From a virus: DNA of 21,060 nucleotides. The notes under the pieces are model-generated. The model did no database searches. It saw nothing but the letters and a program-made list of their open reading frames with translations, and was not told the origin of the DNA. The position numbers and the translations under genes were made by a program. Within the stretch, counting starts at the first letter, position 1. Every line of letters starts with the position of its first letter. Shown here piece by piece: positions 1,031 through 7,226 of the stretch. The DNA lies in IMG/VR virus record IMGVR_UViG_3300028925_007497, positions 1-21,060 of that record, one strand, 5' to 3'.

Positions 1031-1059
1031 TTGACATTGCTTCCTAGTAGTGTTATAAT
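1031..1059 (+). promoter_or_regulatory. Consensus sigma70 promoter (early type) before small-gene cluster
   Basis: TTGACA at 1031-1036 and TATAAT at 1054-1059 have a 17-base spacer and an extended -10 TG at 1051-1052. The ten bases TGTTATAATA and the following GCT(A/G)TATA are the same as in the promoter at 721, so the two probably derive from one another or share a further control. It lies in the 69 bases between two small genes and would drive the overlapping cluster from 1087 through the tRNA. Confidence 0.9.
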
Positions 1060-1681: not shown

Positions 1682-1865
1682 GACTACCATTCATTTAGAG
1701 GGTCAACTCATCACATGTGAGTATAGACTCAATAAAGTTGACTCTGTACAGGCAGCACTAGCTAATGTCAGTGTTGACATAGATGTACATTCATGTGTCA
1801 TCACTACAGTATTATCGTTAGTTGATGCGCCTGATCCGGTAGTCAATCGTAATTTGCTCCGTTAG
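1671..1865 (+). CDS. Hypothetical small protein (64 aa) whose stop lies inside a tRNA gene
   Basis: This 64-residue protein (MFYKTTIHLEGQLITCEYRL...) starts within the last 11 bases of the preceding gene in another frame and ends in TAG at 1863-1865, which is inside the 5' part of the tRNA-Thr (1856 onward). The predicted pattern is mainly beta strand. No family is recognised. Overlap with the tRNA means that a ribosome finishing this gene would sit on the tRNA acceptor sequence before processing, so translation and tRNA maturation from one transcript would compete. The gene could be a chance frame, but the continuing overlap pattern favours it. Confidence 0.6.
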   Translation: MFYKTTIHLEGQLITCEYRLNKVDSVQAALANVSVDIDVHSCVITTVLSLVDAPDPVVNRNLLR

Positions 1866-1931
1866 CTCAGTTGGTAGAGCAGTTGCCTTGTAAGCATCAG
1901 GTCGTAGGTTCGACTCCTATACGGAGCTCCA
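1856..1931 (+). tRNA. tRNA-Thr (anticodon UGU)
   Basis: A full cloverleaf can be drawn by hand. The acceptor stem (1856-1862 with 1921-1927) has seven perfect pairs, the D stem is GCTC/GAGC, and the T arm has the loop TTCGACT. The anticodon loop CTTGTAA (1887-1893) gives UGU, which reads ACA. The anticodon stem has one T-T mismatch (1883/1897). The CCA end is encoded at 1929-1931. The Thr-rich late genes downstream use ACA heavily, which fits a phage tRNA that supplements the host. Confidence 0.95.
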
Positions 1932-1935
1932 GTTC

Positions 1936-2020
1936 GGAGAGGTATCCCATTAAGGTTGGTATGGGCCACAGTGAAGTTCTTCTTATATGAAGTGTGGCGA
2001 TGGGTGTTGGGATACTCTCC
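1936..2020 (+). ncRNA. Candidate structured RNA directly after tRNA-Thr
   Basis: Bases 1936-1949 pair with 2008-2020 as a 13-bp stem with one bulged G (1942). Inside, 1966-1970 pairs with 1993-1997 (CCACA/TGTGG) and 1979-1982 with 1989-1992 (CTTC/GAAG) around a six-base loop. An 85-base arm of this kind beginning five bases after a tRNA CCA end looks like a stable RNA co-transcribed and cut out with the tRNA. It does not fit a tRNA: there is no T arm. The sequence following the stem, ATTTTATT, could make it an unusual terminator instead. Structure is seen by eye; identity as an RNA gene is inference. Confidence 0.5.
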
Positions 2021-2074
2021 ATTTTATTCTGTGTACCGGTTGTCACACAGCAGCCCCCCATTAAAACTGGCATG
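1946..2074 (+). repeat. 18-base motif present twice in the gene-free region
   Basis: CCCATTAAGGTTGGTATG (1946-1963) and CCCATTAAAACTGGCATG (2057-2074) agree at 14 of 18 positions, and all four differences are transitions. The copies are 111 bases apart. The first lies in the long stem structure, the second in the hairpin region that follows. Conservation of this kind within non-coding sequence suggests duplicated, related RNA elements. Confidence 0.6.
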
Positions 2075-2150
2075 CTGAGTTTAATCTATAAGTGTAGTTA
2101 AGTACCTAAGCGATATCTCGCGCACTACCTTTGCGGGTGGTGGTGGCAGT
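2029..2150 (+). other. Gene-free stretch with several hairpins, possible second RNA
   Basis: Between the structure ending at 2020 and the gene at 2179 no coding frame is convincing. Hairpins visible are: 2029-2034 with 2045-2050 (CTGTGT/ACACAG), 2061-2068 with 2078-2084 (seven pairs and one bulged A, loop containing GCATGC), 2094-2098 with 2124-2128, and a small GCGA/TCGC hairpin at 2110-2121. A G-rich run (2134-2147) follows and could pair with the C-run at 2054-2059. Whether this is one RNA, two, or a structured leader of the gene at 2179 cannot be decided from sequence. Confidence 0.4.
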
Positions 2151-2178
2151 TCCACAGGTTACTATAATGAGAAAGTAA

Positions 2179-2406: not shown

Positions 2407-2474
2407 GAAAGAGCCCCCCCCTGAAACTGAGCGTTATTCAATTGCACTACCCTGCATTATAATACGGAAATCTA

Positions 2475-2503
2475 TTGACACTATAACTTACCTGTGTTAT
2501 AAT
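2475..2503 (+). promoter_or_regulatory. Consensus sigma70 promoter (early type)
   Basis: TTGACA at 2475-2480, a 17-base spacer and TATAAT at 2498-2503, with the extended -10 TG at 2495-2496. It shares TGTTATAATA with the promoters at 721 and 1031. The start of transcription is expected near 2510. A second TATAAT at 2458-2463 has no good -35 box at the right distance. Confidence 0.9.
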
Positions 2504-4035: not shown

Positions 4036-5508
4036 ATGTCTGAAAATTACTTTATGGGTCTTGACGGATTCGTATGGTTTACTGGTGTTGTTGAAGATAG
4101 AAACGACCCAGATAAACTTGGTCGGGTTCGTGTTCGTTGTCTTGGATTTCATACAGAGGATCTAGTTGATATACCAACCGCAGACTTGCCGTGGGCAACT
4201 GTTATGCATCCTGTTACTGATCCCTCAATGCAAGGACTAGGCAACAGCCCTTCCTTTCTTGTTGAAGGTAGTTGGGTAATCGGTTTCTTTTCTGATGCAA
4301 ATTTAAAACAACAACCTATCATAATAGGAAGCCTGCCGGGCATACCACTTGATGGTGCTGACCCAACAAAAGGATTTAATGATCCTCGTAGTGCAAATTC
4401 CTTTCAAGAAGATTATCTAGGAACTCCATCATATGGCCCCTATCCTGTAGATGGTGAAGAATACGATATGCCGTCTGGTCATAGTATTGGTGAATCAGAT
4501 ACAAATAAACTTGCACAAGGACAATATTCTGAAGAACACGATGCACTTATAAGAAGAAGAACCAATCAACAAAAAGATATTCCAACTGCAACGCAACCCA
4601 ATTTATCTACAGTATCGGATAGTGCAGTAATTGAAACTCGGAGTACTTTTAACGAACCAGACCCCAAAGGTATTCTTGAAAATGCAGATCCATATTTTTC
4701 TTCACAATATCCATACAACCATGTATTTGAATCTGAGTCTGGACACATTACAGAAATAGATGATTCGCCCGGCGGTGAAAGAATATTAAAAGAACACAAG
4801 TCTGGAACATACGAAGAAATAATTGCAAACGGAAGCAAGACAGTAAAAGTTATCGGTGATAATTGTGAAATCATTATGGGTGGTTCAGATGTTTATATTG
4901 CTGGTGCAGTTAATCTAACAATAGGTGGAACTGTTCGTCATCTTGTCAAGGGTGATTATCATTTAGAAGTTGAAGGAAACTATACGCAAAAGATACACAA
5001 GAATATGCGTACAAAAATTGGAGCTGGTGTTTCTGGTGGAAACCTTGAAGAAGAAATAAAAGGAAATCACGCATTTAATATTTCAAATAATATTAAGGGG
5101 CGTATCGGAGAAGATGTTGATGTTACCACAGAAGGTAATGAACAAAGAATTAATAACGGAACATATAAGTTGGTAGCAAAGAGTAATATTTTTGCAGCTA
5201 CAACTGGTGGTACTTTAACACTTAATGCTAGTGGTAATGTTTCGATTGATACTACCTCTGGTATTATGTCAATCAAATCTGGTACAACTTTAAATATGAA
5301 ATCTGCAACTGCAATGACTGTTGGTTCAGAAACTACATTTACTGGAACATCAACTGGCATTGGAACATTTACATTCTCTGGTGATGGAAGTAACTTTATT
5401 GCAAACAATGGGTCTAGTGTTGCTATCGGTCTTACAACTCATACTCATACTCAAGATGCAGATAGTGATGGTGATACACAGGCAACTACAAATGTGCCTA
5501 ACGCTTAG
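4036..5508 (+). CDS. 5: Baseplate hub/tail spike protein, T4 gp5-like without lysozyme domain
   Basis: The N-terminal ~125 residues match the OB-fold domain of T4 gp5 and VgrG proteins (FTGVVEDRNDPDKLGRVRVR; LPWATVMHP; VEGSWVIGFFSD; PIIIGSLPG). From about residue 235 the sequence is the start of the VgrG-like spike (VFESESGHITEIDDSPGGER) and then short, Gly/Asn-rich strand repeats expected for the triple-stranded beta-helix needle. Residues 468-472 (THTHT) near the C-terminus are typical metal-binding tip histidines. T4 gp5 (575 aa) has a lysozyme domain between these parts; here the ~110-residue linker is polar and shows none of it, as I recall for cyanophage gp5. The trimer should form the central spike below the tail tube. 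First gene after the late promoter at 4009, with AAGGAG as ribosome site. Confidence 0.93.
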   Translation: MSENYFMGLDGFVWFTGVVEDRNDPDKLGRVRVRCLGFHTEDLVDIPTADLPWATVMHPVTDPSMQGLGNSPSFLVEGSWVIGFFSDANLKQQPIIIGSLPGIPLDGADPTKGFNDPRSANSFQEDYLGTPSYGPYPVDGEEYDMPSGHSIGESDTNKLAQGQYSEEHDALIRRRTNQQKDIPTATQPNLSTVSDSAVIETRSTFNEPDPKGILENADPYFSSQYPYNHVFESESGHITEIDDSPGGERILKEHKSGTYEEIIANGSKTVKVIGDNCEIIMGGSDVYIAGAVNLTIGGTVRHLVKGDYHLEVEGNYTQKIHKNMRTKIGAGVSGGNLEEEIKGNHAFNISNNIKGRIGEDVDVTTEGNEQRINNGTYKLVAKSNIFAATTGGTLTLNASGNVSIDTTSGIMSIKSGTTLNMKSATAMTVGSETTFTGTSTGIGTFTFSGDGSNFIANNGSSVAIGLTTHTHTQDADSDGDTQATTNVPNA

Positions 5509-6797: not shown

Positions 6798-7226
6798 ATG
6801 GCGCAGTATGATGCAACAACAACCAATAATAGCAAACGTAGTGCTAGGATATATTCAGACATAGATTTGTTCTTTGGAAAAAAAACTTCCAATGATGATA
6901 TTCAAAGCATTACTGATATTAAAGCTGTTAAGCGTTCTGTTCGTAATCTGGTATTAACTAATCATTATGAAAAACCATTCCACCCAGAGATTGGTTCTGG
7001 TGTTCGCGATATGTTGTTTGAAAACATGACTCCAATTACAGCACAGATACTTTCAAGAAAGATTGAAGATGTAATTAATAACTTTGAACCAAGAGTAAGA
7101 TTAGTAGGTATTACAGCAAACCCAAATTTGGATAAAAACTCATACGAAGTTTCGATAGAATTTTATGTCGTTAATGCTCCCACAGAATTAGTTGACCTAT
7201 CCATAATGTTAGAGAGATTACGATAA
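6798..7226 (+). CDS. 25: Baseplate wedge protein gp25
   Basis: At 142 residues it is close to T4 gp25 (132 aa). The conserved features are visible: ARIYSDIDLFF near the start, VKRSVRNLVLTNHYEKPFHPEIGSGVRDMLFE (about 44-75), and the EPR motif at 97-99 (NFEPRVRL) typical of the gp25/GpW family. gp25 joins gp6 in the inner wedge and is linked to starting sheath assembly; related proteins (TssE) act in type VI secretion. It is preceded by a 40-base gap with an AGGGG ribosome site, wider than other junctions here, and it overlaps gp6 by one base (TAATG at 7224-7228). Confidence 0.95.
   Translation: MAQYDATTTNNSKRSARIYSDIDLFFGKKTSNDDIQSITDIKAVKRSVRNLVLTNHYEKPFHPEIGSGVRDMLFENMTPITAQILSRKIEDVINNFEPRVRLVGITANPNLDKNSYEVSIEFYVVNAPTELVDLSIMLERLR

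Follow-up and report, generated by a model that had tools for sequence, protein, structure and literature searches.

The 21,060-nucleotide stretch of viral DNA analysed here (the window) carries, directly behind a tRNA-Thr gene, a structured RNA of about 85 bases that we call M1. That M1 is a genuine conserved structured RNA is practically certain: its fold, its partly unpaired invariant core, its presence as one copy per contig and its coding strand are established. The initial annotation had treated a whole gene-free interval of 247 bases as a possible unnamed structured RNA locus. This proposal stands for the ~85 nt at 1936-2020 and falls for the full 247 bases.

A conserved RNA fold behind the tRNA-Thr gene

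The window comes from a T4-like marine phage and corresponds to a virus record of 21 kb. It includes a gp5-like baseplate hub gene at 4036 and gp25/gp6-like genes at 6798 and 7226; the nearest gp6 sequences were those of Methylophilales phage Melnitz (51.6%) and of the Pelagibacter phages Mosig (51.1%) and HTVC008M (49.2%). SAR11 and OM43, the hosts of isolated relatives of this phage group, are both among the commonest marine bacteria. As had been noticed before, the interval at 1932-2178 starts right at the encoded CCA end of the tRNA and contains no plausible gene: the next plus-strand ORF follows immediately after it, and the sole ORF reaching into it is on the minus strand (58 aa, 1897-2073). 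Four small ORFs and the tRNA, all in the orientation of M1, separate M1 from the nearest strong promoter upstream, and tRNA-Thr and M1 probably lie on one transcript in the window. The long stem with one bulge and the further two-part hairpin enclosed by it, both described from the window by the initial annotation, correspond to P1 (13 bp in the window, with one bulged G) and to P2 with P3, respectively (Table 1).

Table 1. Position of M1, its parts and the surrounding features in the window.
Feature	Position	Strand	Basis and remarks
Sigma-70-type promoter TTGACA-N17-TATAAT	1031..1059	+	read from sequence; nearest strong promoter upstream of M1
tRNA-Thr (tgt)	1856..1931	+	ARAGORN, Rfam; immediately 5' of M1; encoded CCA 1929-1931
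M1, structured RNA P1-P2-P3, ~85 bases	1936..2020	+	covariance model R2, 34 distinct relatives, covariation
P1 5' strand GGAGAGGUAUCCCA	1936..1949	+	single bulged G at 1941/1942
P1-P2 joining strand UUAAGGUUGGUAUGG, conserved	1950..1964	+	invariant columns in alignment A4
P2 5' strand GCCACA	1965..1970	+	covariation
P2-P3 joining strand GUGAAGUU, conserved, AAGUU invariant	1971..1978	+	alignment A4
P3 5' strand CUUC	1979..1982	+	covariation
P3 3' strand GAAG	1989..1992	+	covariation
P2 3' strand UGUGGC	1993..1998	+	covariation; abuts P3, then variable joining strand to P1
P1 3' strand UGGGAUACUCUCC	2008..2020	+	covariation
M2, two-box element AAACTG-N17-TATAAGTG	2064..2094	+	conserved in 26 sequences; elsewhere AAACTG-N17-TATAAATGYAATAAG
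Small membrane-protein-like ORF, 75 aa	2179..2406	+	same-place counterparts in relatives match DUF6552
M3, related two-box element AAACTG-N17-CTACCC	2424..2452	+	occurs in Melnitz as well
Following sigma-70-type promoter TTGACA-N17-TATAAT	2475..2503	+	sequence reading and script

Relatives of M1 were collected by exact-pattern scans of viral contigs and from protein-anchored loci, and identical copies were collapsed to give 34 distinct versions, all on metagenomic fragments of marine T4-like phages, for which Melnitz, Mosig and HTVC008M are the closest isolates; because exact patterns were used, more distant versions were missed. P1, P2 and P3 are present in all 34. Thirty-one of these sequences were aligned with MAFFT (alignment A4), three with inserted hairpins being excluded. 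The invariant core in this alignment consists of CAUUAAGGU.GG..UGG, CA, AAGUUC, GUGUG and GUUG. Additional hairpins were found in the P1-P2 joining strand, between GGU and UGG (L069), and between P2 and AAGUU (L241 and L244, with different stem sequences), and hairpins inserted at loop positions in this way are typical of real RNA folds.

In A4, 91.9% of the cells were paired. Both sides had changed in 15 of the 22 scored pairs (171 cells of this kind; 60 in shuffles), and the covariation score was 0.603 compared with 0.235 in shuffles, none of the 500 shuffles reaching the observed value; A4 covers one phage group and the shuffles ignore relatedness, which is retained in the slid-partner controls, where the score was at most 0.231. 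For P1, 10 of the 12 scored pairs had changed on both sides among the 31 sequences, and one position took as many as six standard pair types. The same was true of three of the four P3 pairs, and P2 pair 35/68 was found as UA 17 times, as CG 13 times and once as GC. An earlier alignment of 22 sequences, made before the distant members were found, gave the same covariation picture. The compensatory changes that the initial annotation had suggested looking for are thus present in the relatives. The conserved coding frame that it had named as the contrary outcome was not found: no reading frame was open across all 31 sequences tested, whose lengths span all three classes modulo 3. G-U cells exceeded A-C cells (26 versus 8, excluding the frayed first three P1 pairs), which together with promoter direction identifies the plus strand as the RNA. 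Folded alone, positions 1934-2022 of the window gave a z of -2.75 relative to shuffles, and the mean over the 34 distinct versions was -2.7. That the hairpin is a chance feature of spacer DNA, or that the region is coding, is hardly tenable. Noncoding DNA does often yield foldable stems, as in the 3' part of this very interval, but covariation, the mean z over 34 versions and the lack of a frame shared by all 31 sequences refute such explanations for 1936-2020.

Distribution of M1 and neighbouring sequence elements

Covariance model R2 matched the window at 1931-2025 (76.3 bits, E 6.3e-19, a rough E-value, the window sequence being in the model). M1 was found once in the window and once in each of 14 contigs, which were up to 72 kb long. 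The same model did not detect M1 in the complete genomes of Melnitz, HTVC008M, T4 and HK022; a match in Pelagibacter phage Mosig (21.9 bits) lay within a coding gene, lacked the core and was rejected. The inability of the initial annotation to assign a known RNA family was borne out by a search of Rfam 15 (4227 families), in which tRNA was the sole match in the window at the gathering threshold and M1 gave none even at E<=10. Only tRNAs were found by Rfam in 15 loci bearing relatives. ARAGORN and Rfam revealed no tmRNA in the window, either one-piece or permuted, and no intron or RNase P was detected upstream of M1 in a three-sequence alignment and in an Rfam search of L247. BLASTN of M1 against 50,697 phage records gave no meaningful match. 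A single match among 84,980 bacterial and archaeal genomes, in Streptococcus ferus, lacked the rest of the core and was taken as chance, and the matches added by the loose pattern TTGGTATGGGN{5,10}AAAGTTC were coding-like sequence without the core. When the downstream gene for the MHLLPVYY.. protein was used as an anchor, 80 loci were obtained and M1 occurred only in four contigs that were already known (L148-L151), indicating that this gene is more widespread than the RNA. A search of the open-access literature retrieved no description of M1, which is not proof of absence.

The 3' part of the interval gave a different result. At least four more hairpins had been proposed there, up to 2128, a claim that could not be upheld, as 2022-2178 folds like its shuffles (z = -0.66). 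Conservation in this part covers about 2054-2120 and comprises AAACTG, 17 bases, TATAAATG (TATAAGTG in the window) and then YAATAAG, with near-fixed spacing in 26 aligned sequences, Melnitz and HTVC008M included. No consensus structure was obtained over these 26 sequences. M2 is a sequence element and not a second RNA domain, and a single folded RNA made of M1, M2 and M3 was rejected on the same ground. The fixed spacing of the two boxes suggests that M2 and M3 are promoter-like or protein-bound DNA elements, possibly unrecognised promoters. The two elements flank the small membrane-protein gene in the window; two-box elements are also found in Melnitz (L145, 25293 and 25739 onward) and in HTVC008M (23933-23957).

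Other candidate RNA modules were observed around M1. A second RNA motif, motif X, is built as stem, W-CTGGAG, hairpin, CTAGR..ACTG, two bases and stem, and its stems differ yet pair. It occurs about 80-560 nt upstream of M1 in L004, L005, L006, L230, L250, L233, L256, L248, L247, L254, L035, L246, L039, L062 and L069, with some copies nested within one another. Over 33 kb, 18 matches were found on the M1 strand and none on the opposite strand; two matches located downstream of M1 (L071 and L256) are probably due to chance. Rfam gave no match to motif X in the loci tested. In L247, L248 and L254, a strongly conserved noncoding stretch of about 290 nt lies between a sigma-70-type promoter and M1; it had no Rfam match in L247, where the nearest upstream ORF resembles, by eye, an HNH endonuclease. 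A hairpin with the loop CAGGGATT..CTCCTTTC.CCCCTTGAACAG and with stems that differ between loci was seen upstream of M1 in L233 and downstream of it in L069. Between M1 and M2, L235 and L256 carry a tRNA-like sequence, GAAAGGTCTGG ... GGTTCAATTCC ... CCCTTTCA, which ARAGORN does not call as a tRNA.

Promoters, downstream genes and possible roles of M1

In 13 of the 34 relatives, a promoter of the TTGACA-N17-TANNNT type ends 17-26 bases ahead of the ATTAAGG core, so that the transcription start would coincide with the first P1 base or lie within a few bases of it. In many other members the distance to such a promoter upstream is 65-410 bases, frequently taken up in part by further noncoding modules, and M1 is often on the same transcript as other noncoding modules. 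In L243 and L252, an intrinsic-terminator-like hairpin upstream of M1 holds in its loop the -35 TTGACA of the M1 promoter.

This arrangement recalls an antitermination or antipausing RNA that would act on RNA polymerase close to the promoter, in the manner of HK022 putRNA. The sizes are comparable (~85 nt for M1, ~70 nt for putRNA), genes lie downstream of M1, and for the members placed a few hundred bases behind their promoter it can be noted that putR likewise lies ~270 nt from the start site (PMC9378689). However, M1 forms one long arm and not two stem-loops, occurs once per contig despite the presence of many such promoters, and is followed almost at once by a new promoter in L241, L246 and L247; moreover, the covariance model finds no match in HK022. 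We consider this role quite unlikely. The long P1, which in many members coincides with the predicted 5' end or lies close to it, could also simply be a 5'-end or spacer element stabilizing the neighbouring transcript or a tRNA precursor against nucleases, the core then being a requirement of the fold and not a binding site. A hairpin serving stability would not need a core of some 30 invariant bases that includes many unpaired ones, which makes this explanation improbable.

What lies downstream of M1 varies. Small membrane-protein genes of more than one type are found there, some matching DUF6552, whereas no ORF separates M1 from the next promoter in L241, L246 and L247. An ORF of 24-26 aa together with tRNAs follows M1 in L243 and L252, tRNA-Cys in L058 and L072, and tRNA-Arg in L230. 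Of the 34 distinct relatives, six have a recognised tRNA near M1, located 5' of it in the window and 3' of it in the rest, and the position of M1 behind a tRNA is thus atypical among relatives.

These downstream sequences bear on whether M1 might be a riboswitch-like cis leader, whose core would bind a metabolite while the formation of P1 would decide the fate of the transcript or free a downstream ribosome-binding site. Its anatomy is that of an aptamer, with a variable, covarying closing stem beside an invariant core, and it is promoter-proximal in the 13 members described above. In L243 and L252, M1 is leader-like, its end being separated by some 20 nt from the ribosome-binding site of the tiny ORF downstream. 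In L252 the 3' strand of P1 could pair with this site, with a predicted accessibility of 0.35 with P1 and 0.04 without it. On the other hand, such a switch was predicted in L252 only, and not in L243, L011, L034, L036 or the window, so that a general ribosome-binding-site switch is unsupported among the six tested. There is no consistent set of downstream genes, some relatives having none, and in the window about 160 nt, M2 among them, separate M1 from the next start codon. We regard a riboswitch as a rather unlikely alternative, which we retain because in two members a small ORF follows M1 directly.

The role that we tentatively prefer, reading it from sequence and its comparison, is that of a putative protein-binding domain within a stable RNA that the phage would make early and that would act in trans. 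M1 would be a structured domain of an early phage transcript, contained within a small stable noncoding RNA. Shielding of the RNA would fall to the closing stem P1, and a protein of the host or of the phage would bind to a surface made up of the invariant joining strands (UUAAGGU.GG..UGG and AAGUUC). The 5' end of M1 in the window would arise by processing at the 3' end of tRNA-Thr. That M1 acts mainly in trans is suggested by the inconstancy of the linked gene and by the units without an ORF, and we hold this part with similar reserve; a role in cis, through read-through into downstream genes, may exist. A broader possibility, which we consider doubtful, is that M1 is one module of an RNA system that also comprises motif X, the ~290-nt RNA and tRNAs, acting in trans (for example by capture of host proteins) with no need for a protein product. 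If so, the early transcription unit would be built mainly of interchangeable structured RNA domains and tRNAs. Standard annotation passes over several structured RNA modules in the early regions of these phages. For M1, the fold is well supported, 34 distinct versions are available and the bases to be mutated are clear.

Comparison with known systems

The tRNA region of T4 encodes two small stable RNAs of unknown role, RNA C and RNA D (PMC3014915). The analogy drawn with them by the initial annotation applies to position, since the window comes from a T4-like phage and the noncoding M1 immediately follows a tRNA in it. It does not extend to homology, as model R2 is unmatched in T4, and most relatives of M1 are not beside a recognised tRNA. 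HK022 putRNA, whose copies are found behind PL and PR, brings about antitermination without protein factors. Like M1 in many of its members, it is encoded by a phage close to an early promoter, and the two RNAs are similar in size; the put element, however, has two stem-loops and is present in two copies per genome (PMC9378689), while M1 is a single arm in one copy and its model does not match HK022. Orphan riboswitch aptamers share with M1 the variable closing stem and the invariant core, but M1 is without a constant downstream gene, a consistent expression platform or an Rfam match. Melnitz, the nearest isolated relative, has a permuted tmRNA and a glutamine riboswitch (PMC9004378). Its tmRNA is likewise a structured RNA gene but occupies a separate and unrelated locus (45984-46446) in a genome that has no M1. 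GOLLD and ROOL are phage-associated RNAs of orphan function that are often near tRNAs, are hundreds of nucleotides long and are present in Rfam. M1, which resembles them in general description, differs in having no Rfam match. The M1 family is new in this respect, and belongs to a kind already known, that of the orphan structured phage RNAs.
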